The notes under the pieces are model-generated. The model saw only the letters and a program-made list of their open reading frames with translations, had not been told where the DNA came from and did not search any database. A stretch of DNA of 64,000 bases, from positions 124,001-188,000 of the forward strand of contig MPMR01000002.1 in NCBI GenBank assembly GCA_002238605.1, given 5' to 3'. Source of the stretch: BD2-11 clade cluster bacterium bin43. GTDB lineage: Bacteria; Gemmatimonadota; Gemmatimonadetes; Longimicrobiales; Gaopeijiaceae. The translations under genes and the position numbers were made by a program. Shown one piece after another: positions 20,646 through 37,741 of the stretch. Each line of letters starts with the position of its first letter. Within the stretch, counting starts at the first letter, position 1.

Positions 20646-22028
20646 ATGCCGGCGCGTATCCTGATCGCGGATGACCAGAGCGATATTCTTGAAGCTGTGC
20701 GCCTGCTGCTGAAGGGCGAAGGCTTTGAGACCACCGCCGTCACGTCGCCCGGTGCGGTCCGGCGCGCGGTCGAAAAAGGTGATTTCGACCTGGTTCTGCT
20801 CGACTTGAACTACACCCGCGACACCACCTCCGGAAAGGAAGGACTGGGTCTGCTCGGCGACCTGCGCGAACTGGACGAAACCCTGCCGGTCGTCACCATG
20901 ACCGCGTGGGGCAGCGTGGGTGGAGCCGTGGAGGCGATGCGCCGCGGAGCCCGGGACTATGTCGAGAAGCCGTGGGACAATGAACGGCTGCTCGCCACGA
21001 TTCGGACGCAGGTGGACCTCGGGCGGGCGTTGCGCCGCGCCCAGCGGCTCGAGACGGAGAACATCAGGCTCAAGGGAGAGAGCGCACCGCAACTCATCGC
21101 CGAATCCGCGGCCATGCGGCCGGTGCTGGAGATCATCGACCGCATCGGCCCCTCGCACGCAAACGTGCTGATTACCGGAGAGCACGGGACGGGAAAGGAG
21201 GTAGTCGCGCGACGCCTGCATGCCGTGTCGAACCGAGCCGAGTACGACCTCGTCGCCGTAAACGCCGGGGGATTCGGCGAAGGGATCTTCGAGAGCGAGA
21301 TCTTCGGACATGTAAAGGGTGCCTTCACCGACGCCCGGACCGAGCGGGTCGGGTGCTTCGAACTTGCCCACAAGGGCACCCTGTTTCTTGATGAGATCGC
21401 CAACGTATCGTTGCACCAGCAGGCCAGGTTCCTGCGCGTGCTCGAGACCGGGGAGATTCAGCGTGTCGGCTCGTCGAAGGTGCGGCATGTCGATGTGCGG
21501 GTCATTTCCGCCACCAACGCCAGCATTGGCGAAGCAGTAGCGAGAGGTGAGTTGCGCGAAGATCTGCTCTACCGGTTGAACACGGTCGAAATCGAGCTTC
21601 CCCCACTTCGGGACCGTCCCGAGGACATCCCGCTACTCGCTCGGCACTTCCTGGTCCGGCAGGCAACCCGCTACGGAAGAGCCATCGTCGGCTTTTCGCC
21701 GGGGGCCGAGGCCGCCCTCGCGGCGCACGCATGGCCGGGCAACGTGCGTGAGCTGCAGCATTCGGTCGAACGCGCCGTGCTCATGGCACGCGGCTCGCAC
21801 ATCAAGGCGGCCGACTTTCGGCTGCGCGGCCGCGAAGTCGATTCGGCAACCCTCTCGGACGTTACGCTGGAGGAGGCCGAGCGGATCCTCGTCCGGAAGG
21901 CGCTGGATCGCCACGATGGTAATGTGAGCAGGGCGGCGCGGGCGCTTGGGCTCACTCGCAGCTCCCTCTACCGGCGGCTGAAGCGGATCAAGGCCGAGGA
22001 CGATGACCGGGAACCCGTGAGTCGTTGA
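20646..22028 (+). CDS. NtrC-family sigma54-dependent response regulator
   Basis: This 460-residue DNA-binding activator has a receiver domain (1-120) with acidic DD at 9-10, phospho-acceptor Asp53 (LLDLNY) and Lys108 (EKPW). The AAA+ domain (about 148-385) has Walker A GEHGTGKE at 178, the sigma54-contact loop GAFTDA at 225 (canonical GAFTGA, with Asp for Gly) and Walker B LFLDE at 246. The C-terminal Fis-type helix-turn-helix (about 415-455) reads NVSRAARALGLTRSSLYRRL. It is paired with the kinase 34 bp downstream. A sigma54-like promoter precedes it and another precedes the efflux operon at 23744, the probable target. Confidence 0.94.
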   Translation: MPARILIADDQSDILEAVRLLLKGEGFETTAVTSPGAVRRAVEKGDFDLVLLDLNYTRDTTSGKEGLGLLGDLRELDETLPVVTMTAWGSVGGAVEAMRRGARDYVEKPWDNERLLATIRTQVDLGRALRRAQRLETENIRLKGESAPQLIAESAAMRPVLEIIDRIGPSHANVLITGEHGTGKEVVARRLHAVSNRAEYDLVAVNAGGFGEGIFESEIFGHVKGAFTDARTERVGCFELAHKGTLFLDEIANVSLHQQARFLRVLETGEIQRVGSSKVRHVDVRVISATNASIGEAVARGELREDLLYRLNTVEIELPPLRDRPEDIPLLARHFLVRQATRYGRAIVGFSPGAEAALAAHAWPGNVRELQHSVERAVLMARGSHIKAADFRLRGREVDSATLSDVTLEEAERILVRKALDRHDGNVSRAARALGLTRSSLYRRLKRIKAEDDDREPVSR

Positions 22029-22062: not shown

Positions 22063-23403
22063 ATGAGCCTCAGGTGGCTGGGTACGCGACACGACTGGCG
22101 GGTTCTCCTCCTTACCGCTTTGGCGGGCCTGCCCGGCGTCGTCGTGGCACTCCTCTTTCTCTGGCGGAGCGGCCTCGACCCCGCAATGCGCTGGCCGTTG
22201 TCGCTGGCGTTGATCGGCGGTTGGATCGGGCTCAGCGCCGCTGCGAAGAACCACGCTGTCGGTCCCTTTGAGACCATCGCGAACATGCTCGCGGCCCTGC
22301 GTGAGGGGGACTTCTCGATCAGGGCCAGGGTGGGTGATGCCCGAGACTCCCTCTCGCTGGCCTATCTGGAGATCAACTCACTCGAGGAGATCCTGAGGGA
22401 GCAAAGGCTCGGAGCCGTTGAGGCCACCGAGACGCTCCGCAAGGTCCTGGAGGAGATCGACATCGTGGTGCTGGCCTTCGACCCGCAGGGTGTGCTGCGC
22501 ATCATCAATCGGGCCGGCGAAAGACTCCTCGGACAGCCGGCGCGCCGACTCAGAGGCAGGACAGCGGAGGAGTTGCGTCTCTCCGGCCAGTTGACCGGTA
22601 CTACGCCGCGCACTGTGGAGCTCTCATTTCCCGGTGGATCGGGCCGGTGGGAACTTCGACGCAGTGTCGTCCGCCAGGAGGGGTATCCCCTCAGGCTGAT
22701 CGCGCTCTCGGACCTGAGCCGTGCGCTGCACGAAGAGGAGCGCAAGGCCTGGAAGCGCATCATCCGCGTGCTGTCCCATGAGATTAACAATTCCCTCGCC
22801 CCGATCAAATCGATCTCGGGCAGCCTCCGCACCCTTCTGAAGCGCGGCCGGCTTCCTGCCGAGATGGAGGACGATGTGGAGCGGGGCCTGGACGTGATAT
22901 CGTCCCGGGCCGAGACGCTGGGGCGGTTCATGGCTTCCTATGCCCGGCTCGCTCGGCTGCCGGCACCGAAGCCGGCTCCAATCCCGGTCGGTAATCTGGT
23001 TCAGATGGTTGCCGACCTGGAGACCCGGATCCCGGTGGAGGTGGTGCCGGGCCCCGAGGCTACCTGTTCCGCGGATGCGGATCAGCTCCAACAAGCCCTC
23101 ATCAACCTCGTGAGGAACGCGGTCGATGCAACTCTCGAAGCCGGGGGCCGGCGGGTCCGGCTCGGATGGGCGGTGCATGACGCCAGGGTTGAGATCATCG
23201 TCGAAGACGAGGGCCCCGGGCTCGGAGACACCGGCAACCTCTTCGTGCCCTTCTTTACCACCAAGTCCGGGGGCTCCGGGGTCGGCCTCGTCCTGTCACG
23301 GCAGATTGCAGAGAGCCATGGCGGCACTCTGTTGCTGGAAAATCGGGGAGACGGCCCGGGAGCACGCGCGCGCATCGCGATCCCCATGGATTCGGACGAT
23401 TGA
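22063..23403 (+). CDS. membrane sensor histidine kinase (NtrY-like)
   Basis: This 446-residue kinase has two membrane segments (about 13-33 and 44-60) with almost no periplasmic loop, suggesting that it senses within the membrane. A HAMP-like linker (65-115) and a PAS domain (about 125-215, NRAGERLLGQPARRLRG) follow. The dimerisation helix has phospho-acceptor His239 in LSHEINNSLAPI, and the ATPase domain has N-box NLVRNAVDA, G1 EDEGPGLG, F-box FVPFFTTKSGG and G2 GSGVGL. All catalytic boxes are intact. It is the partner of the upstream sigma54 regulator. Confidence 0.93.
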   Translation: MSLRWLGTRHDWRVLLLTALAGLPGVVVALLFLWRSGLDPAMRWPLSLALIGGWIGLSAAAKNHAVGPFETIANMLAALREGDFSIRARVGDARDSLSLAYLEINSLEEILREQRLGAVEATETLRKVLEEIDIVVLAFDPQGVLRIINRAGERLLGQPARRLRGRTAEELRLSGQLTGTTPRTVELSFPGGSGRWELRRSVVRQEGYPLRLIALSDLSRALHEEERKAWKRIIRVLSHEINNSLAPIKSISGSLRTLLKRGRLPAEMEDDVERGLDVISSRAETLGRFMASYARLARLPAPKPAPIPVGNLVQMVADLETRIPVEVVPGPEATCSADADQLQQALINLVRNAVDATLEAGGRRVRLGWAVHDARVEIIVEDEGPGLGDTGNLFVPFFTTKSGGSGVGLVLSRQIAESHGGTLLLENRGDGPGARARIAIPMDSDD

Positions 23404-23609: not shown

Positions 23610-23743
23610 CTGTCTCCCCTCGGAAGCGCGGGCGGTCCCATGGGGAAGCGCGAGGAGATCGCGGCGAGGCCTGGAGGCGTTGGTCAGGTCAACGCCGGCG
23701 CCCACCGCAGGCACCGATCACTCCGGACGTGGAGCGAGCATCA

Positions 23744-25264
23744 ATGGTTCGAGATACCGCAGTTGGCGCGGCTCTCGTCCTGATGGCCGCGGTCGGTATC
23801 GCCTCAGCCCCCGCGGGGGTATCGGCCCAGGAGCGAATCAGTCTCTCGCTCGAAGAGGCAATCCGGATCGCGAAGGATGGGAACCCGGCCTTTCTCTCGG
23901 CGACCAACGATCTGGATCGCGCCGCGTGGCAGGTCCGCGAGGCCTACGGCCAGTTCCTGCCTTCGGTCATCGCCGGGGGAGGAGCCCAGTACGAGTACGC
24001 CGGCGTGCAGCGCTTCGGCATCTTCTCGTCGACCGACATCGCGGTGGGCACCACGGATTACCTGCTCTCCAACTATTTCCTGTCCGTCAACTGGTCCCTT
24101 AACGGCAACACATTCTTCCAGGCGAGGTCGGCGCGTGCGAACCAGCGCGCCGCCGAGGCCAGGGGCGCGGCCGACGAGTTCGCCCTGGAGGCCACCGTCA
24201 CGCTGCAGTACCTCGCCGCGTTGAGGGCCAGGGACGCGGTCGAAGTTGCGGAGGGCCAGGTGGCCCGCTGGGAACAGAACTTTGCGCTGATCGGTGCGCG
24301 GGTTGACGCGGGAGCCGCCCTTTCGACCGAGGGAAAGCAATCCGAGGTTGATCTGGGGCGAGCCCGGGTGGCCCTTCTGCGGGCGGAAAACCTCTACCGC
24401 ACCGAAGTGGCCCGCCTCATGGAGCAGCTCGGCACGGATCTGGGAGCCCCGCTCGAGCTGGCTTCGGACTTCGCCGTGTTCGAACCGGATTGGGATCGGA
24501 GAGAGCTGATCGAGATGGCCACATCGGGACATCCCGGCTTGCGGGCGGCTCTGGCGTCGGAGGCCTCGGCGTCGGAGCAGGTCAACCAGGCCCGCAGCAG
24601 CTACTTTCCGACGGTCTCGGCCTCGGCGGTCTGGTCCGGGTTCACCCGCCAGGTCGGCAACCGGGACTACGTCGTTCAGCAGGCACAGGGCAGCGTCGAC
24701 CGGCGGCGACGAAGCTGCCAGTTCGACAACGCCCTCCTCGCCCACCTGCAGGAACTGCCGGGGCTTACGATGGACGATTGCTCGAAGTACGTGCTCACGG
24801 AACCGATGCGCCAGCAGGTCCTGACGGCGAACGAGACGTTCCCGTTCGACTTCACGGGGCAGCCGCTGAGCCTTCGCCTGGCCGTGAGTTTCCCCGTCTT
24901 CGAAGGCTTTGCCAGGCAACGCAACATCGCCCACGCCCAGGCGGACAGGCGAGACGCCATGTACGCTCGCAGGGCGGAAGAACTCAGGCTCCGCGCGGCC
25001 GTCACGCAGTCCTACGACGATCTGGTGACGGCATACCGGGCCCTGCGCATCCAGGAGCGCAATCTCGAGGTCGCGTCGGAGCAGCTTGAGCTCGCACGCC
25101 GGCGTTATGCGCTCGGGGCGGCCCCGTTCCTGGAGCTTCTGGACGCCGAGGACTCGATGGCGCAGTCGGAGCGCGACCACCTCGCTGCCGTGTACGACTT
25201 TCATGCTGCCATCTGGTCGCTTGAAGCCGCGGTCGGAAGGCGTCTTCGACCGGAGGATGGGTGA
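23744..25264 (+). CDS. TolC-family outer-membrane efflux channel
   Basis: This 506-residue protein has a signal peptide ending GVSAQE and two repeats of the OEP family: long Ala/Glu/Arg-rich helices (about 40-250 and 270-500) broken by strand segments. A Cys-containing insertion near 325-350 (RRRRSCQFDNA, LTMDDCSKYV) is unusual. It would form the exit duct of the exporter encoded next. The start is ATG 23744 with GGAG about ten bases upstream; GTG 23729 is in frame. First gene of an operon reading TolC, permease, adaptor, ATPase. Confidence 0.9.
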   Translation: MVRDTAVGAALVLMAAVGIASAPAGVSAQERISLSLEEAIRIAKDGNPAFLSATNDLDRAAWQVREAYGQFLPSVIAGGGAQYEYAGVQRFGIFSSTDIAVGTTDYLLSNYFLSVNWSLNGNTFFQARSARANQRAAEARGAADEFALEATVTLQYLAALRARDAVEVAEGQVARWEQNFALIGARVDAGAALSTEGKQSEVDLGRARVALLRAENLYRTEVARLMEQLGTDLGAPLELASDFAVFEPDWDRRELIEMATSGHPGLRAALASEASASEQVNQARSSYFPTVSASAVWSGFTRQVGNRDYVVQQAQGSVDRRRRSCQFDNALLAHLQELPGLTMDDCSKYVLTEPMRQQVLTANETFPFDFTGQPLSLRLAVSFPVFEGFARQRNIAHAQADRRDAMYARRAEELRLRAAVTQSYDDLVTAYRALRIQERNLEVASEQLELARRRYALGAAPFLELLDAEDSMAQSERDHLAAVYDFHAAIWSLEAAVGRRLRPEDG

Positions 25265-25300: not shown

Positions 25301-27747
25301 ATGAGCGGGTACACGATGCTCGATGATTTCCGCTACTCCGTGAGGGCCCTTCGGAGGACCCCCGGGTTTACCGTTGTGGCCGCATTGGTGCTCGCTCTCG
25401 GGATCGGCGCCACGAGCGCGATCTTCAGCGTACTGAGCGCCGTGGTGTTGCGGCCCGTGCCTTTTCCGGACGGCCAAAGGGTCGTGAATCTGGCGTGGAA
25501 CTACGGTGCCTACGCCTCCCCCTACCTGACGGCAGCCAGGTTCTCGTACTGGCAGGAGCGCACGCGCTCCCTGGGCACGTTCGCGAGCTGGCGGCCGTTT
25601 TTCGGGAGGGTCGGCGAAGTCGGCGAGATCACGGGCGCTCAAGGCCTGCGCGTAACGGCGGGCTTTTTCGGCGTGCTGGGCATGTCGCCGACGGTGGGCC
25701 GTGCCTTCGCCGAGGATGAGTACCGACCGGGCGGACCGAGAGTCGCGGTAGTGTCTCCAGGGTTCTGGCGCGAGCACTTCGGCGAACAGGTGGACGTGTC
25801 CGGCCGCGTCTCGATCAGGCTGGAAGAAGAGGCCTACCCGATCATCGGGCTGCTTCCCGAGGATTTCGCGTTCCCTTACGTCCCGGAACCCGTGGAGATC
25901 ATCCTGCCCACGGAGGTGCCACCCGTCGACCCTGACGACCATGGCGAGAATTGGCCGGCTATCGCAAGACTCGGCGAGGACTACACGATGAGTGACGCCC
26001 GGACCGAGGTTGCGTCGCTCAATGCCGGGTTCGGGGTGACTTACCCCCAGCAAGCCGCCGAAGCCGAACCCGGCATGATGCTCGAATCCTTCGCGGAGTT
26101 GTACGTCGGACAGACGGCGAGTGCGATCTGGATCCTGATGGGTGCCGTCATGGCCGTCCTGCTGATCACCTGCGCCAACGTGGGCAACCTGTTCCTCGTC
26201 AGGGCGCTGCGACGGCGTGGGGAGATGGCGCTTTGCGCCGCGCTCGGAGCAACGAAGAGCCGCATCGTGCGCCTCGGCATGGCGGAGGCCGTCGCCGTGG
26301 CTTCGGCGGCGGGCGTCGTCGGAATCGCGCTCGCGGTCTGGGGCGCCAACGTGCTCGTCGCATTGGCGCCCGTCCGGCTGCCGCTGGCAGGCGCGATCAC
26401 GGTGGACTGGAGGGTTGCAGCGTTCACGATCGCGATCTCGCTGACCGCGGCGGTCGTGGTGAGTCTCGTGGCTGCGTGGCCCGGGGTGCGCGGGGGACTG
26501 TGGCGGGCGCTGGGACAGGGGTTCCGGACCACGAGCGGACAGCGTCGATTGCAGGAGGCGCTGGTATCGGGGCAGACGGCGCTCTCGACCATTCTGCTCG
26601 TGGCGGCCGGTCTGCTCTTCACCACCTGGTCGAACCTCAGGCAGGTCGACCCCGGATTCGATCCCGAAGCGCTCGTAGCCGTGAAACTGCCGATCAGGCC
26701 GCCGAACTATGACACTTCCGAGCAGCTTGACGAGTTTGCGCAGGGAGTGATCGAACGTGTGCGAGCCTCGGAGGGAATCAACCTCGTCGCCGGAGCCAGC
26801 AGTCTCCCCTTTGAGCGGGGCCTGAACTTCCCCGTTTCAATCGCGGGACGTGATGAGTTCGGTGGTTCGGTCGAGCTGCGAACCGTCACCCGGGGCTATT
26901 TCCGGACGCTGGGGGTCCCGTTGGTGCGCGGACGATCGTTCACTCCAGCGGATGTTCGGGGCGCCGTCCCGGTCGCCATCGTCAATGAGACGTTCGCGCG
27001 CAGTTACTTTCCCGATGGCGACGCGATCGGACAGCGCATCGATCCCGGGCGAATCGGCAACGAGTACCGATTCCCTTCCCTGGAGGGGCCCGGAGTCCTG
27101 ATCGTCGGCGTGGCTTCTGATGTGCAAGACGTTTCGTTCCGGACCGAGGTCCGTCGAACGATGTACCTTCCGCACGCTCAGGTCGGCGATTACATCGCCA
27201 ACATCCGACCCACGATGCCGGTGTTCGTCGTGCGGAGCACGCTGCCTGTGGACCGGCTCGAGCGGGCATTTGGGCAGGCGACTCGCATTGTGGACCCCGC
27301 GCTGCCCGGTCCTGATGTCTTCCCTCTGAGCGAGACGGTCGCGGAGACAATGGCCCGGGAACGATTCGGCACCCTGCTCGTGGCGCTCTTCGGCGCTCTC
27401 TCGCTCATCCTGACCGCGGTCGGCGTCTACGCCGTGTTGGCCCAGACCGTACGAAGTCGACGCCGCGAGATCGGAATCCGAATGGCTGTAGGCGCGAGCG
27501 CCGACCAGGTACTGCGGCTGTCCGTCGTGCGAGGGCTGCTCCCGGTCGCGGTCGGGGTCGGCATTGGACTCGCGGGTGCGATGGCCCTCTCGGGTCTGCT
27601 GGAAGCCTCCTCTGGGGCGTAACCGGCACCGACGCCAAGACGCTCGGCATCGCTGCGGCCAGCATCCTCATTGTAGCCACCCTGGCGTGTTGGATTCCCG
27701 CGCGGGAAGCGGCGGGGATGGACCCCGTCACAGCGTTGGCCTCATGA
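25301..27747 (+). pseudogene. ADOP-type ABC efflux permease, frameshifted near the C-terminus
   Basis: The frame from 25301 encodes an ADOP (eight-helix, doubled MacB/FtsX) permease: LRRTPGFTVVAALVLALGIG at the N-terminus, a MacB-type periplasmic domain, then paired FtsX domains. It stops at 27622, right after LSGLLEASSGA. In the -1 frame the sequence continues as SLLWGVTGTDAKTLG, a last membrane helix and AREAAGMDPVTALAS, ending at 27747 as the family does. A single lost base at 27603-27604 (GAAAGC to GAAGC) explains it. The last helix, about 47 residues, is detached. It may be a real lesion or an assembly error in an A-run. ATG 25316 is an alternative start. The adaptor follows in 20 bp. 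Confidence 0.85.
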
Positions 27748-27766: not shown

Positions 27767-29047
27767 TTGGACATAATCCGCGATACCGGCCCCAGGAAGC
27801 GGAGGAAGAGGCTGGCGTGGAGCGCAACGGCCATCGGCGCCTTCGCGATCGCCGTCTTCGGATGGCAGCTGCTTCCGTCGGGCGTCCCCAGCGTTGATGC
27901 CGCCATCATCTGGAGCGACACGGTGGCGCACGGAACGTTGACTCGGCAGGTGCGAGGTCCGGGCACGCTCGTACCGGAGCAGATGCGCTGGATCACCGCG
28001 GTGACCGCCGGACGTATCGAGCAGATTCTCTCGCTGCCCGGCGCCGAAGTCTCAGCCGGTGATCTCATCATGCGCTTGAGCAACCCGGATGTGGACATGC
28101 AATTGCTGCAGGCCCAGCAGCAGTTGTCGGCGGCGCACGCGAGCCTCGTTCAACTGAGGACCAGCCTGCGGATGCAGGAGCTTCAGCTGCGCGCCACCAC
28201 GGCAACCGTGCGTGCGGACTACCTGGAGGCGGAGCGAACACATCGGATCAACCAGCAGCTCTTTGACGAGAATCCGGAACTCGTCGCCCGGGCCGACCTC
28301 GATCGGTCACGCGAGTCCGTGGAAGCCCTGTCGCTTCGCCTCGAGACCGAGACGGAGCGCCTGGCCGTGATCCAGACCACGTCCGGGGAGCAAATCGGCG
28401 CCCAGGAGGAACAGATCACGCGGCTCGCCGACCTGGTCCGGTTCAGCCGGGATCGAATCGGGTCCATGCACGTGACCGCATCGGTGCGCGGGGTGTTGGC
28501 GCCGCTCGACATTCCGCTACAGGAGGGACAGTGGGTGCAGTCGGGACAGGCCCTGTCGCGAGTCGTCGTTCCGGGTCGCCTGAAAGCGGAGATCCGCATA
28601 CCGCAGACGCAGGCGCAGGAGATCGCTGTTGGACAGGTCGCGATGATCGACACGCGGACGGACACGATTCAGGGGCGGGTCGTGCGCATCGATCCCGCGG
28701 TTCGGAGCGGAACCGTGACCATCGACGTCGCACTTCCGCCGGACCTTCCGCCATCGGCGCGCCCCGATCTCAGCGTTGACGGAAACGTCGTCGTCGAGCG
28801 CCTCGATGACGTAATCCACATGAGCCGTCCGACGTTCGGGCAGGCCAATCAGCAGATGAGCCTCTTCAGGGTGGTCGATGACGGGCGGTTCGCAGAGCGC
28901 GTTACCGTCCGCCTGGGCGCGAGTTCGCTCAACGACATCGAGGTACGCGAGGGACTGCAGCCCGGCGACGTCGTGATTCTGTCGGACATGTCCCAATGGG
29001 ACGGGTTCAGCCGGGTGAGGCTGAGGGGACGCGGAGGAGCACGATGA
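27767..29047 (+). CDS. periplasmic adaptor (HlyD/MacA-like) of an ABC efflux system
   Basis: This 426-residue membrane-fusion protein has an N-terminal inner-membrane anchor (about 19-36, LAWSATAIGAFAIAVFGWQL). Then come a lipoyl half-motif (TAGRIEQILSLPGAEVSAGDLIMRL), a long coiled-coil hairpin (about 100-225), the second lipoyl half and beta-barrel (ASVRGVLAPLDIPLQEGQ) and a membrane-proximal domain. It would bridge the permease and TolC. The TTG start is supported by AAGGAG seven bases upstream. It overlaps the ATPase gene (ATGATGA). Confidence 0.88.
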   Translation: MDIIRDTGPRKRRKRLAWSATAIGAFAIAVFGWQLLPSGVPSVDAAIIWSDTVAHGTLTRQVRGPGTLVPEQMRWITAVTAGRIEQILSLPGAEVSAGDLIMRLSNPDVDMQLLQAQQQLSAAHASLVQLRTSLRMQELQLRATTATVRADYLEAERTHRINQQLFDENPELVARADLDRSRESVEALSLRLETETERLAVIQTTSGEQIGAQEEQITRLADLVRFSRDRIGSMHVTASVRGVLAPLDIPLQEGQWVQSGQALSRVVVPGRLKAEIRIPQTQAQEIAVGQVAMIDTRTDTIQGRVVRIDPAVRSGTVTIDVALPPDLPPSARPDLSVDGNVVVERLDDVIHMSRPTFGQANQQMSLFRVVDDGRFAERVTVRLGASSLNDIEVREGLQPGDVVILSDMSQWDGFSRVRLRGRGGAR

Positions 29048-29766
29048 TGGCCAGTGATCCGCTGATCCGGCTGGACGGCGTGGGCAAGGTTTTCCTTGCC
29101 GAAGAGGTGGAAACGCACGCGCTGTCGAACATCAATCTGTCGATACGCAGCGGCGAGTACATATCGATTGCGGGTCCATCGGGCTGCGGCAAGACGACGT
29201 TGTTGTCGATTCTGGGATTGCTGGACGGTCCCACGAGCGGGCGCTACGTGCTGGACGGCACCCCGGCCGAGAAGCTGGATGCGGGCCAGCGGGCACGAGT
29301 TCGCAACCGGGCGATCGGCTTCATCTTCCAGGCGTTCAACCTGATCGGTGACCTGACCGTGTACGAGAATGTCGAGTTGCCGCTGACCTATCGGGGGATG
29401 GGGGCCGCGGAACGCAAGGAGCGGGTGCAGGAGTCCCTCGAACGTGTGGGGCTTGCTCATCGCACGCGGCACTATCCCAACCAGTTGTCGGGCGGCCAGC
29501 AGCAGCGTGTCGCGGTCGCGCGGGCGATCGTCGGAAGCCCGCTCATCCTGCTCGCGGACGAGCCCACGGGGAACCTCGACTCCAGAAACGGAATCGCAGT
29601 GATGAGGCTTCTCGATGAGTTGCATGCCGATGGCGCCACGATCTGCATGGTGACGCACGATCCGCGTTATTTCCACATGGCCGAACGAACCGTCCACCTC
29701 TTCGACGGGCAGATCGTGAGCGAAGATGAAGCGCAGCGGCAGGCCCTTGAGAGGGTCGGTCCCTGA
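29044..29766 (+). CDS. MacB-type ABC transporter ATPase
   Basis: This 240-residue ATPase powers the exporter with the preceding genes: Walker A GPSGCGKTT, Q-loop FQAFNLI, signature LSGGQQQR, Walker B LLADEP followed by TGNLDS, and switch His in VTHD. It is of the LolD/MacB subfamily. The start is ATG 29044, overlapping the adaptor stop and preceded by GGAGGAG; upstream in-frame codons to 28996 shadow the adaptor. Confidence 0.95.
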   Translation: MMASDPLIRLDGVGKVFLAEEVETHALSNINLSIRSGEYISIAGPSGCGKTTLLSILGLLDGPTSGRYVLDGTPAEKLDAGQRARVRNRAIGFIFQAFNLIGDLTVYENVELPLTYRGMGAAERKERVQESLERVGLAHRTRHYPNQLSGGQQQRVAVARAIVGSPLILLADEPTGNLDSRNGIAVMRLLDELHADGATICMVTHDPRYFHMAERTVHLFDGQIVSEDEAQRQALERVGP

Positions 29767-29803
29767 GGATGGAGACAGTCACGGGATTGGAGCAGGCGGC
29801 TTC

Positions 29804-29985
29804 ATGAGTCCCACGCTCCGGAACGCGTTGCGGCGGCTGAGGCGAAACCCCGGATTCAGCCGGTCGTCGTCTGCGGTACCGTGTTTCTAACAGCAGGAAT
29901 CGCCATCATCAGACCAGTCCTGTCGACCGGTCGGCGGGATGCGATGGGACTGATTCAGCAAGGACTGTCGGGGCATTCCACATGA
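29804..29985 (+). pseudogene. degraded remnant of a second ADOP permease
   Basis: ATG 29804 opens MSPTLRNALRRLRRNPGF, the typical N-terminus of ADOP permeases, then stops at 29890. In the next frame the sequence continues as VVVCGTVFLTAGIAIIRP, like the first membrane helix, and stops at 29985. About 800 codons expected of a full permease are absent before thrC. This looks like a 5' fragment with an internal frameshift left after a deletion. It is the last piece of the efflux operon. Confidence 0.65.
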
Positions 29986-30009
29986 TTCCGGGTCGGCCGC
30001 CCCGGCGAC

Positions 30010-31212
30010 TCACTGTGACTCCACCGGCGTCATCCCCACGTACTTGAGCCCGCTTCCGGTGTTGAACAGCACCGTTTCGTCGTCCTCGGAGAGGAGCCCC
30101 ATCCGGAGCAGCTCCGTGACCGACGCCAGCACCGCGCCTCCTTCCGGACAGGCGAAGATGCCCGTGCATTCCCCCATCACGCGCACGGCTTCCGCCATCG
30201 CCGCGTCCTCGATCGCCACCGCGCCGCCCCCCGATTCCCTGATCGCGCGCAGCATCAGGAAGTCCCCCACCGCCGCCGGGACCCGGAGCCCCGCCGCGTA
30301 TGTCTCGGCGTCCTGCCAGAACTGCGCCGCCTCGGTGCCTTCCTGCCAGGCCCGCACCACCGGCGCGCACCCGGTCGGCTGAACCGAGAACATCTTCGGC
30401 CGCTCGTCCCCGATCCAGCCCATCTGCTCCATCTCGTCGAACGCCTTCCACATCCCGATGAGACCGGTGCCTCCTCCGGTCGGATAGATCACGGCGTCCG
30501 GGAGCCGGAACCCCAGCTGCTCGAAGAGCTCGTACCCCATCGTCTTCTTGCCTTCCACCCGGTACGGCTCCTTCAGGGTGGAGAGATCCCACCAGCCCAT
30601 GTAGTCGGCCCCCTCGCGCACCACCTTCCCGCAGTCGGTGATGAGCCCGTCCATGAGCACCAGGTCGGCGCCCAGCCCGCGGATCTCCTCGACGATGGGC
30701 GCGGGGGTGTCGTTGGGCGCCACGATGTGCACCGGGAGTCCGCCCGCGGCCCCGTACGCGGCCGCCGCGCTGCCCGCGTTGCCCGCCGAGGGGATCGCCA
30801 GCTCCTTCGCCCCCAGCTCCTTCGCCCGCGACACGGCGAGGCACAGCCCGCGGTCCTTGAAGCTGCCCGTGGGGTTCATGCCCTCGTTCTTCACCCAGAG
30901 GCGCCGCATGCCGTACCGCTCCGCGAGCCGCGGCGCGTCCGTGAGCGGCGTCCAGCCCTCCCCAAGCGACAGCTGGCATTCCGGTACCCGCACCGGCAGC
31001 ACCTCCTCGTAGCGCCACAGATCCGGCCGCCGCCCTGCCAGATCGCCGGGGCGGAAGTGGCGACGGATGGTGTCAAGATCGTAGCGCGCGAACAGGGGCC
31101 TCCCGGCGGGCGAGAGGCCCATCAGCTGCTCGCTGTCGAAGGTCTCGCCGGTCCAGGTGCACTCCAGATGACTGGCGCCGCGCGCCTTCCACGGAATTGC
31201 GTTCATGTGCAT
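30010..31212 (-). CDS. thrC: threonine synthase
   Basis: This 400-residue PLP enzyme converts O-phosphohomoserine to threonine. LSLGEGWTPL opens the catalytic core; the PLP Lys is in NPTGSFKDRG; PSAGNAGSAAAAYGA is the Asn/Gly motif; YPTGGGTGLIG binds the PLP phosphate; and NTGSGLKY closes the domain. An N-terminal segment of about 70 residues is short for the E. coli type but normal for the shorter class. ATG 31212 or 31206 may be used. The gene converges on the efflux remnant and diverges from the sigma-factor operon. Confidence 0.9.
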   Translation of the reverse strand: MHMNAIPWKARGASHLECTWTGETFDSEQLMGLSPAGRPLFARYDLDTIRRHFRPGDLAGRRPDLWRYEEVLPVRVPECQLSLGEGWTPLTDAPRLAERYGMRRLWVKNEGMNPTGSFKDRGLCLAVSRAKELGAKELAIPSAGNAGSAAAAYGAAGGLPVHIVAPNDTPAPIVEEIRGLGADLVLMDGLITDCGKVVREGADYMGWWDLSTLKEPYRVEGKKTMGYELFEQLGFRLPDAVIYPTGGGTGLIGMWKAFDEMEQMGWIGDERPKMFSVQPTGCAPVVRAWQEGTEAAQFWQDAETYAAGLRVPAAVGDFLMLRAIRESGGGAVAIEDAAMAEAVRVMGECTGIFACPEGGAVLASVTELLRMGLLSEDDETVLFNTGSGLKYVGMTPVESQ

Positions 31213-34069: not shown

Positions 34070-35290
34070 CTACTCGTACCTGAGCGAGTCGATCGGATCG
34101 AGCAGCGCCGCCCGGCGCGCGGGCCAGATTCCGAAGAAGAGCCCGATCCCCGCCGAGAAGAGCAGCGCCACCGCGACCGCTGCGGGCGCGACCGCCGTCT
34201 CCCAGCCCGCCGTGCTCGATAGCAGCTCCGCGCTGCCGACCCCCGCTGCCACGCCCAGGACGCCGCCCATCGTGCATAGCACGAGGGACTCGATGATGAA
34301 CTGAAGCAGGATGTTCAGCCGCGTGGCCCCCATCGCCTTGCGGATGCCGATCTCGCGGGTGCGCTCGGTCACGCTCACCAGCATGATGTTCATGATGCCG
34401 ATGCCGCCGACCAGCAGGCTGATCGCCGCGATGCCTCCAAGGAGGTAGGTGAAGGTCTGCTGCGTCTCGTTGAACGACTCCAGCAGCTGCGCCGAGTTGC
34501 GGATGGAGAAGTCGGCTTCCTCACCGGGCGGGATGCGGTGCTCGCGCCGCAAAATGCGGTCGATGTCGGCATAGGCCGCGTCCATGGAGGCCTCATCCAA
34601 TACCTTCACGCTGATGGAGTTCAGTCGGTCGCGGCCACCGAAGACCCGGTACTGGGCCGTGCTCAGGGGGATGTAGACTCGTTCGTCCGGCTGCGACCAG
34701 GGGCTGGACTCACCCTGCTCCTCGAGGACGCCGATCACCTCGAAGGGAATTCCGCGGATCTGGACCGTGCGCCCCACAAGGAGCGCTCCGGGCGTCTCCA
34801 GCTGGTTGGGGATCTCCGATCCCACGACGGCGACCCGGCGTCGGCCCTGAACCTCTCCTTCGTCGAAGATCCTTCCGAGCGCCAGCTCGATGTTCTGCAC
34901 GCCGAAATACTCGGGCCAGGTGCCCAGCACCTCGTTGCTCGAGTTCCAGCGCAGATACGAAATCTGCTGGCGCTGCTCGATCTCGGGGGCGATCAGGAGG
35001 GTGCCCCCGGTCTGCATGCGCAGCGCCTCTGCGTCCTCGTCATAGAGGCGCGCGCGCGCGCCGCCGTCGCGGATGCCCCGGAACATGCTCTGGCCGGGCC
35101 GGATGGTGAGCACGTTGGTGCCCATGTTCTGGATCTGCTCTTCCACCCGGCGCTGCGCGCCCTCGCCCAGGGACACCATGGCGATCACCGCGGCCACGCC
35201 GATGATGATTCCCAGCGTAGTCAGGAACGAACGCAGCGCGTTCACCCTGATGGCCTGAAGGGCGACGACGACGATTTCCTTGATCAGCAT
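34070..35290 (-). CDS. MacB-type ABC transporter permease
   Basis: This 406-residue permease has four helices in classic MacB/FtsX layout: helix 1 (about 18-42, LTTLGIIIGVAAVIAMVSLG), a large periplasmic domain (about 50-275), then three helices at about 285-310, 335-355 and 365-390. The family segment VTERTREIGIRKAMGAT precedes helix 3. It ends LDPIDSLRYE. Together with the ATPase, adaptor and TolC upstream it makes a tripartite exporter. It is the last gene of the leftward ECF-sigma operon, 20 bp after the adaptor. Confidence 0.93.
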   Translation of the reverse strand: MLIKEIVVVALQAIRVNALRSFLTTLGIIIGVAAVIAMVSLGEGAQRRVEEQIQNMGTNVLTIRPGQSMFRGIRDGGARARLYDEDAEALRMQTGGTLLIAPEIEQRQQISYLRWNSSNEVLGTWPEYFGVQNIELALGRIFDEGEVQGRRRVAVVGSEIPNQLETPGALLVGRTVQIRGIPFEVIGVLEEQGESSPWSQPDERVYIPLSTAQYRVFGGRDRLNSISVKVLDEASMDAAYADIDRILRREHRIPPGEEADFSIRNSAQLLESFNETQQTFTYLLGGIAAISLLVGGIGIMNIMLVSVTERTREIGIRKAMGATRLNILLQFIIESLVLCTMGGVLGVAAGVGSAELLSSTAGWETAVAPAAVAVALLFSAGIGLFFGIWPARRAALLDPIDSLRYE

Positions 35291-35310: not shown

Positions 35311-36990
35311 TTAGCGCCTGCCGCGCGGGGTTCCGCCTCCGAACGGGCTTCCGCCCATCCGCTCGCGCATGCGGTCGATGAACTCCTGCTGCTGTGCCTG
35401 GAGCTGGGCGGCGCCGATCAGCGCGACCTCCTCACCCTCTTCAAGGCCGGCAACCACCTCGGTGTTGTCCCAGTCGTTCACGCCGATCAGGATGGGGCGC
35501 GGTTCGATGGTTCCGTCCGCGGAGATCACGAACGTGATCGCGGGGCGAGGCGCGCCTTCCTCCTGGCGACCTCCCCCAGGGCTCCCGAAACCGGCGCCCA
35601 TGCCGTCCATCATGCCCTGGCCTGCGCCGGACCCCATTCCCATCACTCCGGCACCATTGCCTGCCCCCATGCCCACGCGTCCACCGGCGCCGTTTTCAGT
35701 GCCTCCGCCGGCGCCCGCCGCGGGACGGCCGGCACCCGTTCCAGGTCCTCCGTTCACACCCGCTTCAGGACCGCCGCCGTTCGCCGCCCGGGCCTGCGCC
35801 ATCTGTTCGCGCATCTCCTCCCGCGAAATCTCCCCGGCCGCCAACTGCTCGCGAAGTTCCTGCAGGCGCGCGTTGCCGCCCATCCCGCCCATCGGCCTCT
35901 GGCCTGCCGTCACTCCCCCGCGAACTCCATCAGGAGCCGCGATGAACCCACCCGGCGCGCCGGAGCTGCCCGGCGATGAGGCCCGCAGCTCCGCAAACAC
36001 CGACCGGTCCATCTCGATCGCGTCCGGATCCATCCCGAGCACCATCGCCGCGGGCGCCATCTCCTGGAACTGCACCAGCGCGTTGTTGGGGATGAGCAGG
36101 GCGTTGGGACGCTCGGCGACCAGGATCTCCACCTCCGCGTTCATCCCGGGCTTGAGCAGTCCGCCGCGGTTGTCGATCATCACGATCACCGCGAACATGG
36201 TCACGTTCTGCTGGACCTCGGCTTGCGGTTCGATCTTGTCGACGATTCCCTGGAAGGTCTGTCCCGGGAACGCCTCCACCGTCACCGTGGCGGTCAGCCC
36301 GTCGGAGATCTGCCCGACGTCGGTCTCGTCGACCAGCGTGCGCACCTGCATCTCGGCCAGATTGGCCATCATGAAGAGCGTCGTGCCCCCGGACACGTTC
36401 TGGGAGGCGGACTGGATGACCTGCCCCTCCTCCACGTTCTTCTGGATGATGGTACCCGCCATGGGCGCGCGGATGGTGACGTCGCTCAGCCGCAGCTCGG
36501 CGAGTTCCATGCTCGTGGTGGCCTTGACCAGGTTGGCCTGCGCGTTGGCATAGTCCAGGTTGGCCGCCTCGTGCTCCTGCTCGGTGATCACTCCGGCTTC
36601 GAAGAGCAGGCGCGAGCGCTCCAACTGGGCGCTGGAGATCTCCACCCGGGCCCGCGCCACGTTCAGGTCGGCCTCGATCTGGTTGAAGTCGTTGCGCACA
36701 TCGCGTGGATCGATCTCCGCGAGCAGCGCCCCCGGCTCGAGTTGGTCCCCCGTGTCCACGTGCAGGCGCAGAATCTCGCCCGAAGCCTTGGACTTGACCT
36801 CCACCGTGCGCACGGGCTCCATCAGGCCGGTGGCTTCGGCCACCAGGCGCAGGTCGTCGCGCAGGGCCGGCATGGTCGTGAGGCCGGGCGCCTCTGCAAC
36901 CTGCTCGCCGGGGTCGCAGGCCACCACGGTCAATAGTGCGAGGAGCCTCATGCCCCCGTGCCTCAGTCCCATCGTGCTCACGTTCATCAT
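35311..36990 (-). CDS. periplasmic adaptor (MacA-like) with a Gly/Met-rich insertion
   Basis: This protein of about 559 residues is longer than usual MacA (about 370). An N-terminal lipobox-like LLTVVAC suggests a lipoprotein. Lipoyl halves (ASGEILRLHVDTGDQLEPG; APMAGTIIQKNVEEGQ), a coiled-coil hairpin (about 100-165) and a beta-barrel follow. About residues 330-480 are inserted: a helical EREM-type segment, then a run of Gly, Met, Asn and Ala. The membrane-proximal domain resumes at ITFVISADGTIEPRP. The second ATG (36987) sits five bases after GGAG. It links the MacB pair to TolC. Confidence 0.88.
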   Translation of the reverse strand: MMNVSTMGLRHGGMRLLALLTVVACDPGEQVAEAPGLTTMPALRDDLRLVAEATGLMEPVRTVEVKSKASGEILRLHVDTGDQLEPGALLAEIDPRDVRNDFNQIEADLNVARARVEISSAQLERSRLLFEAGVITEQEHEAANLDYANAQANLVKATTSMELAELRLSDVTIRAPMAGTIIQKNVEEGQVIQSASQNVSGGTTLFMMANLAEMQVRTLVDETDVGQISDGLTATVTVEAFPGQTFQGIVDKIEPQAEVQQNVTMFAVIVMIDNRGGLLKPGMNAEVEILVAERPNALLIPNNALVQFQEMAPAAMVLGMDPDAIEMDRSVFAELRASSPGSSGAPGGFIAAPDGVRGGVTAGQRPMGGMGGNARLQELREQLAAGEISREEMREQMAQARAANGGGPEAGVNGGPGTGAGRPAAGAGGGTENGAGGRVGMGAGNGAGVMGMGSGAGQGMMDGMGAGFGSPGGGRQEEGAPRPAITFVISADGTIEPRPILIGVNDWDNTEVVAGLEEGEEVALIGAAQLQAQQQEFIDRMRERMGGSPFGGGTPRGRR

Positions 36991-37030
36991 CTCTCCAGAG
37001 AATCCTGCTTCGCAGGAAATGGCGTCATCT

Positions 37031-37741
37031 TCAAACGGTCGCCGTCATCAGGGATTCGTTCATGAAGTCGCGCTCGACCAGGCCGTCCCGCAGATGAATC
37101 TGCCGCTGGGCGTACTGGGCGATGTCGTGCTCGTGCGTCACCACAAGGATGGTCTGCCCCTGCCGGTGGAGGTCCACGAAGACCGTCATGATCTCCTCGC
37201 TGGTGGTGGAGTCCAGGTTGCCCGTGGGCTCGTCGGCCAGCAGGATGGCGGGCTCGTTGACGAGCGCGCGCGCGACCGCCACGCGCTGCCGCTGGCCGCC
37301 GGAGAGCTCCGGTGGGCGGTGGTCCATGCGCAATCCCAGGCCCACCGTCTCCAGCGCCTCGCGGGCCCGCTGGCGCCGCTCGCGGGCGGACACGCCGGCA
37401 TAGATGAGCGGAAGTTCCACGTTGTGCAGCGCCGTGGCGCGCGGCAGCAGGTTGAAGGTCTGGAACACGAACCCGATTTCGCGGTTGCGGACGTTGGCGA
37501 GCTGATCGTCGCTCAAGTCGCTCACCAGCTGCTCGTTCAGCCAGTACTGCCCCCGGGTGGGGGTGTCCAGGCACCCGATCAGGTTCATGAAGGTGGATTT
37601 GCCGCTGCCCGAGGGTCCCATGATGGCGACAAACTCGCCCCGGCTGATCTCGAGGTCGACGCGGCGAAGGGCGCGGATGGTCTCCGCTCCCAGCACGTAG
37701 TGCTTGGTCAGTCCTACGGTTTGAATGACAGGTCGGCTCAC
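37031..37741 (-). CDS. MacB-type ABC transporter ATPase
   Basis: This 236-residue nucleotide-binding subunit has Walker [11 protein letters not shown]-loop FQTFNLLP, signature LSGGQRQR, Walker B LLADEP with TGNLDS, and switch His in VTHEHD. It energises the permease at 34070. The GTG start overlaps the TolC stop (GTGA), so it is translationally coupled. ATPase and permease are separate here, unlike the fused E. coli MacB. Confidence 0.95.

Follow-up and report, generated by a model that had tools for sequence, protein, structure and literature searches.

Positions 29804-29985 of the window, the 64,000-nucleotide stretch of DNA that was analysed, very probably are a pseudogene, left when a single deletion took about 2.27 kb out of the interior of perm2, the second permease gene of an exporter operon. 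The segment consists of the first 57 bp of the 2,451-bp gene fused to its last 125 bp. It starts 37 bp past the stop codon of the ATPase gene, and the convergent gene for a PALP-family enzyme (30010-31212, minus strand; PF00291), which bounds the operon and had been called thrC, lies 24 bp beyond it. The original prediction of a fossil second permease at the end of the operon is thus borne out, as both ends of perm2 are kept. The 5' end (29804-29860, plus strand) comprises 19 codons, MSPTLRNALRRLRRNPGFS, and is the ADOP N-terminus that had been recognized there; it differs in 2 of 19 residues and 6 of 57 bases from each of the four relatives G005, G007, G008 and G001, in which the frame runs on. 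The 3' end (29861-29985, plus strand) encodes the last helix and the C-terminus up to the stop codon at 29983-29985. It is out of frame with the 5' end, because the length of the deletion is not a multiple of three. The helix in the shifted frame, which had been taken for the first one, is helix 8, the last hydropathy peak of the protein (VVVCGTVFLTAGIAIIRP, residues 774-792 of 816 in G008).

The window sequence 28996-30012 was used as a query against 39 genomes. In G005, G007 and G008 it gave two same-strand matches each, one covering query positions 1-865 and the other 866-991 or 866-1001; the gap between them was exactly 2,269 bp in all three. These genomes carry the intact operon with a full second permease that the original prediction had suggested to look for; each perm2 is 2,451 bp long and open from ATG to stop. 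The right-hand piece matched alone in them with E values of 7.1e-34, 7.7e-34 and 3.7e-31, and its match to the end of perm2 is far beyond chance. The deletion joint, which had likewise been anticipated, was found at 29860|29861, where 2,269 bp are absent relative to the three carriers. Among the matches listed for the 39 genomes, only that of the window genome (G000) itself aligned through the joint and no relative had exactly the same arrangement. The two marks of an internal-deletion pseudogene are therefore present: relatives have an intact orthologue in this position, and G000 has kept both ends. A transfer of perm2 to another place in G000 was considered and rejected, the sole match at E <= 1e-40 being the first permease gene (perm1) with 28% identity. 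Repeats shared at the joint were rejected as well: the two arms have no base in common, and within 60 bp of the breakpoints the longest common direct word is 6-8 bases and the longest inverted one 7. A joint without a shared base would fit end-joining or illegitimate recombination.

Compared with the final 41 codons of perm2 in G005, G007 and G008, counting the stop, the tail of the remnant differs in 19-21 of 123 bases and in 4-5 residues. At sites where the compared carriers agree, the remnant shows 19 differences, of which 13 affect third codon positions: 10 of 14 in the tail (113 sites) and 3 of 5 in the head (55 sites). This excess indicates that perm2 was constrained over most of the period after the split. 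Between the three carriers themselves, its dN/dS is 0.16-0.30 over 816 codons.

Where perm2 is whole, the order of the operon is response regulator, kinase, TolC, perm1, adaptor, ATPase, perm2. All genes of the operon in the window are on the plus strand. It is headed by an NtrC-type response regulator (20646-22028; PF00158, PF00072 and PF02954), found at the same position in relatives such as loci L047, L048 and L058, and a histidine kinase (22063-23403; PF02518). These are followed by a TolC-type outer membrane factor (23729-25264; PF02321, 7.3e-49), perm1 (25301-27622), a HlyD/MacA-type periplasmic adaptor (27767-29047; PF13437 and PF16576; dN/dS 0.12-0.16 versus eight relatives) and an ABC ATPase of the MacB/LolD/DarD type (28996-29766; PF00005; dN/dS 0.10-0.14 versus six relatives). 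TolC, adaptor and ATPase are intact, as had been supposed: each is an open frame with the Pfam domains to be expected.

ADOPs, the 'orphan' permeases, are named for the absence of an adjoining ATPase. Both permeases have the internal duplication of the MacB/FtsX unit that is characteristic of ADOPs, with two MacB_PCD stretches each and FtsX in two stretches in perm1 and in one in perm2; the full-length proteins show eight hydrophobic peaks. The permease of G008 encoded by perm2 matches the ADOP model TIGR03434 over positions 5-800 of 803 with 546.5 bits (543.5-552.8 bits in the three carriers), which is under the curated cut-off of 622.3 bits; it is therefore called ADOP-like. Solved relatives are mostly MacB. 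'Orphan' does not describe these permeases, since the ATPase at 28996-29766 is in the same operon.

The frameshift that had been noticed in the first permease is present. In the window perm1 is a 773-aa ORF that matches TIGR03434 with 665.8 bits (model 2-756) and passes the cut-off even truncated; perm1 of G003 reaches 712.0 bits. The match halts at model position 756 and resumes in the next frame, where the last 45 codons (stop included; 27613-27747, plus strand) are still open to the old stop. The break, near 27604-27612, costs the last helix, leaving seven hydrophobic peaks versus eight. Ten copies from nine relatives have one common frame at the 3' end of perm1, from which G000 alone departs. 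For the body of perm1 dN/dS is 0.15-0.21, and for the 44 codons past the break it is 0.15-0.28 versus eight relatives and 0.08-0.40 among relatives. The values for the perm1 body, the adaptor and the ATPase are all inside the range among relatives; in these calculations G010, which equals G003 at the locus, and the G002-G004 pair were left out, and the ATPase was compared without G002 and G004. As both sides of the break are constrained as in relatives, the break would be either very recent or a sequence error.

The sequence quality was controlled by a gene-by-gene comparison of the window with G010 (39 ORFs retained) and G009 (43 retained). Some dozen or more cases looked short or split and were judged mostly by eye. 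One other case, at about 37030, was examined closely, and perm1 was the only one judged to be a true frame break versus these two genomes, which argues that the sequence is not generally poor. The remaining cases were read as effects of start codons or shadow frames or as divergent ends. The case at about 37030, a seemingly broken gene in a neighbouring macB-type operon, was rejected as an artefact of mechanical ORF calling, the ATPase having the same stop in G010, G009 and G005. A further irregular copy of the operon is on a contig in a bin titled Bryobacterales that is nevertheless about 90-92% identical to the window genus (L072:294-4273); its TolC matches in three frames and continues in one ORF into perm1. 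This state may reflect decay, a mis-binned contig or poor sequence.

The genus comparison covered 11 genomes, G000 included. A full perm2 is present in three of them (G005, G007 and G008), and in G001 its first 154 codons are followed by the contig end. No perm2 orthologue at E <= 1e-40 was found in G002, G003, G004, G006, G009 and G010, where the search returned paralogues of 27-28% identity or no match; G006 is only 67% complete. Without perm2, G009 has a joint at about window 29771/29994, and G003 and G010 have a common one at about 29734/30009. In the latter two genomes (L026:10525-11301 and L027:10330-11106) the ATPase also had its final residues replaced by the deletion that removed perm2, and its frame now terminates inside the 3' end of the convergent neighbour gene. 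In a tree of the operon genes (t1; 8,455 columns, rooted on G002/G004) G009 is sister to the carrier G005 (100%), and G003/G010 group with the carriers G007, G008 and G001 (100%). With fewer genes (t2 and t5) G003/G010 join G009 and G005 (82% and 92%), and G009 and G005 are still sisters (100% and 98%). In t1, t2 and t5 alike, G000 falls outside the group formed by these genomes. The different joints, and the position of non-carriers among carriers in the trees, point to at least three losses of perm2, which would have been present in the common ancestor if the locus was inherited vertically. The tree of the flank (t3; thrC, pdz and macB2) has another branching, in which the partner of G003/G010 is the carrier G008 (100%), not G009. 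This points to recombination, which may have moved the locus; 'three losses' would then be the count of joints. The proposal that the operon is decaying in its permeases is half supported. perm2 is dead in G000 and appears to have disappeared on two or more further occasions in the genus, but perm1 is whole in G003/G010 and G009, and in G000, where it has a frame break, it is as constrained as in relatives. No published case of permease loss in Gemmatimonadota was found in the open literature.

In the outgroup G002/G004 the operon has another order, with adaptor and ATPase first, and is without perm2. The arrangement in these genomes (L028 and L029), adaptor-ATPase-regulator-kinase-TolC-perm1, is a circular permutation of the window order, as expected from a tandem duplication followed by differential loss. 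At L054:7675-10188 a perm2 homologue, 69% identical, is situated between the response regulator and the kinase of an operon with the order adaptor-ATPase-regulator-permease-kinase. This placement implies that the permease type of perm2 has sat in different cassette slots.

The doubled architecture suggests that each ADOP-type chain holds two MacB-like halves. A review of the superfamily describes the MacB pump as a dimer of such units and mentions pairs that are fused or mixed (PMC5985334). Since each chain would already have both halves, perm1 and perm2 are probably alternative complete pumps on one adaptor, ATPase and TolC and not the halves of one pump. As alternatives, perm2 would be dispensable as long as perm1 and the rest are intact; perm2 was lost and a whole perm1 left in G003, G009 and G010. 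The cassette probably works like MacAB-TolC with a separate ATPase: a periplasmic substrate would be taken up by the periplasmic domains of the permease and pushed through the adaptor and TolC by an ATP-driven movement. In the wider family, co-occurrence suggests that one cassette would serve a pool of ADOPs scattered over the genome, of which the window genus, with one to three permeases, may be the shrunken end of the range.

Relatives of the adaptor were collected in named genomes at 31 loci. Among the distant loci with enough flank, an ADOP adjoins the cassette in L062 and L065. None was detected beside it in the available flanks of L059 (cut upstream), L063, L068, L069, L070 and L074, and ten unassigned ORFs from these six loci, picked by length and third-position GC, matched no Pfam permease family. 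The count excludes L060, L061, L064, L066 and L071, which have little flank, L067, which is cut upstream and has none downstream, and L075 and L076, in which the adaptor is only 41% and 34% identical. In L076 a weak ADOP-like ORF adjoins the adaptor. In L068, L069 and L074 a second ATPase, 44-47% identical to that of the window, follows the first, and no permease was detected in the operon. The number of ADOP matches per genome (E <= 1e-60) is at least 46 for L063, 10 for L068, at least 43 for L069, 8 for L070, 18 for L074 and at least 46 for L065; the same six genomes have one adaptor each (E <= 1e-40) and one to three such ATPases (E <= 1e-70). The genomes of L054 and L073 contain two ADOPs, one adaptor and two ATPases each. 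Ten genomes of the window genus have one to three ADOP matches and the incomplete G006 has none (E <= 1e-60); all 16 ADOP matches in the genus sit inside such operons.

The distribution of the two components was surveyed in one sample of 116 genomes of the same family (adaptor at E <= 1e-80, ADOP at E <= 1e-100). The adaptor occurs in 44 genomes, in single copy in 41 of these and in two copies in G001, G002 and G004, and ADOPs occur in 56. Both are present in 43 genomes, the adaptor only in one (G122, 64% complete), ADOPs only in 13 and neither in 59; Fisher's p for this co-occurrence is 5e-19, which is no true probability because the genomes are related. The corresponding numbers are 21, 0, 8 and 41 for genomes with a completeness of 90% or more and a contamination of 5% or less, and 33, 1, 13 and 58 without the window genus. 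Counted by genus (any member, n=40) they are 17, 0, 4 and 19. Mixed patterns occur in eight of the 40. Adaptor and ADOP go together in g33, g45 and, with three exceptions among 14, g6; in g47 one of five genomes has ADOPs only. ADOP-only genomes account for the mixture in g13, g31 and g38, and the incomplete G006 for that in g1. The control was the adaptor of the neighbouring MacB-type system, which is present in 101 of the 116 genomes at E <= 1e-50 (100 at 1e-80 by the listed values). It hardly follows the ADOPs (both 52, adaptor only 49, ADOP only 4, neither 11; p 0.10), and such a near-ubiquitous gene is a weak control and the sole one used. Good assemblies are among the 13 ADOP-bearing genomes without the adaptor at E <= 1e-80: G022 (94% complete) has at least 7 ADOPs and no adaptor at the cut-off, G081 (97%) has four ADOPs and none, and six genomes of g38 have a single ADOP each and none. 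In G022 a matching ATPase reads in two frames (L034:8315-9057), possibly a decayed cassette.

Deletion pseudogenes as such are commonplace, but the setting of this one is less usual, as ADOP, ATPase, adaptor and TolC are in one operon and the adaptor is nearly confined to ADOP-bearing genomes (43 of 44). From this co-occurrence, there seems to be about an even chance that the TolC-adaptor-ATPase cassette is the partner of 'orphan' ADOPs, one engine per genome driving from one to dozens of exchangeable permeases. The permeases would come and go like plug-ins, and the window locus, where one permease is deleted at a joint of its own and the last one is breaking, would be a pool running down to zero. 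The shared operon and the survey make the question of the ADOP partner testable by one gene knock-out. In some phyla the number of ADOPs per genome is in the tens and reaches about a hundred: an acidobacterium MAG has 102 'acidobacterial orphan permeases', with transcription of 80 (PMC10564751), and for two Dyadobacter genomes 28 and 33 copies are reported, likewise 'of unknown function' (PMC11573002). A published partner of ADOPs was not found in the open literature, with subscription papers outside the scope of the search; the passages on ADOPs in these sources give counts without a partner.

The middle of perm2 could have been dropped during assembly, with the gene whole in the living cell. 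G000 is a 4.47-Mb draft of 65 contigs (97.3% complete), both breaks in the operon are known from the assembly alone, and the second one, in perm1, may also be an error. However, the absence of a shared base at the joint and the occurrence of at most 8 common bases in a row nearby in the carriers make a repeat collapse unlikely, and perm1 is the only gene judged truly broken in the window versus G010 and G009. An assembly artefact is consequently regarded as very improbable. A similarly slight chance is given to perm1 and perm2 having formed an obligate hetero-pair, in which case the pump would already have died with perm2. The permease units of LolCE are indeed different chains (PMC5985334), but G003/G010 and G009, all without perm2, keep perm1 open over its full length, with normal dN/dS in G003 and G009, and each chain already has the doubled architecture.

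The whole pump may be dying, both permeases being gone and adaptor, ATPase and TolC being next. With perm2 deleted, perm1 broken before its last helix and no other full-size ADOP in the genome this is possible, though somewhat doubtful, since dN/dS is in the range of the relatives for the adaptor, the ATPase and both parts of perm1, and the perm1 break, if real, would be very recent. It had also been suggested that another permease may now use adaptor, ATPase and TolC. In five of six distant genomes no ADOP was detected beside the cassette, though eight or more are present in the genome, which makes service at a distance plausible in the family. G000 itself contains further, partial and MacB-like, matches to the ADOP model. 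Eight TIGR03434 matches were found besides perm1, which is the only one over the cut-off in this 97.3% complete genome: the tail of perm1 itself and seven partial ones of at most 134 bits. Two of these adjoin each other on contig 5, and one on contig 25 belongs to an 866-aa frame that matches only the last quarter of the model. Another is the neighbouring MacB-type permease (34070-35290); an adaptor (PF16576, PF13437) and an ATPase (PF00005) of its own lie at 35311-37741. The suggestion thus finds no full-size ADOP candidate in G000, and a switch of adaptor and ATPase to a different kind of permease appears unlikely.

By analogy, the cassette of the window probably mediates ATP-driven export through TolC in a MacAB-TolC-like manner. 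It resembles MacAB-TolC in its MacB-type permease domains, HlyD/MacA-type adaptor, TolC and MacB-type ATPase. In MacAB-TolC, however, the ATPase is fused to the N-terminus of the permease, whereas the two are separate ORFs in the window, where the permease is a doubled single chain and a two-component system heads the operon. The likeness to ADOPs lies in the score of perm1 over the cut-off, the near-complete model match of perm2 and the two MacB-like units per chain; the window operon differs in including an ATPase and an adaptor, and perm2 in its score under the cut-off. Separate permease, adaptor and ATPase are also reported for the darobactin exporter DarBCD (PMC9055067). The best NCBIfam match of the window ATPase is DarD, with weaker matches to DarC and DarB, although all the scores are far under the equivalog cut-offs (DarD 243.9 of 375, DarC 40.3 of 450 and DarB 26.1 of 700 bits). 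No biosynthetic gene was noticed. A second operon of G001 (L032, contig C90) has the order adaptor-ATPase-permease X-regulator-kinase-permease Y, in which X and Y are two further divergent ADOP-type permeases on one cassette.
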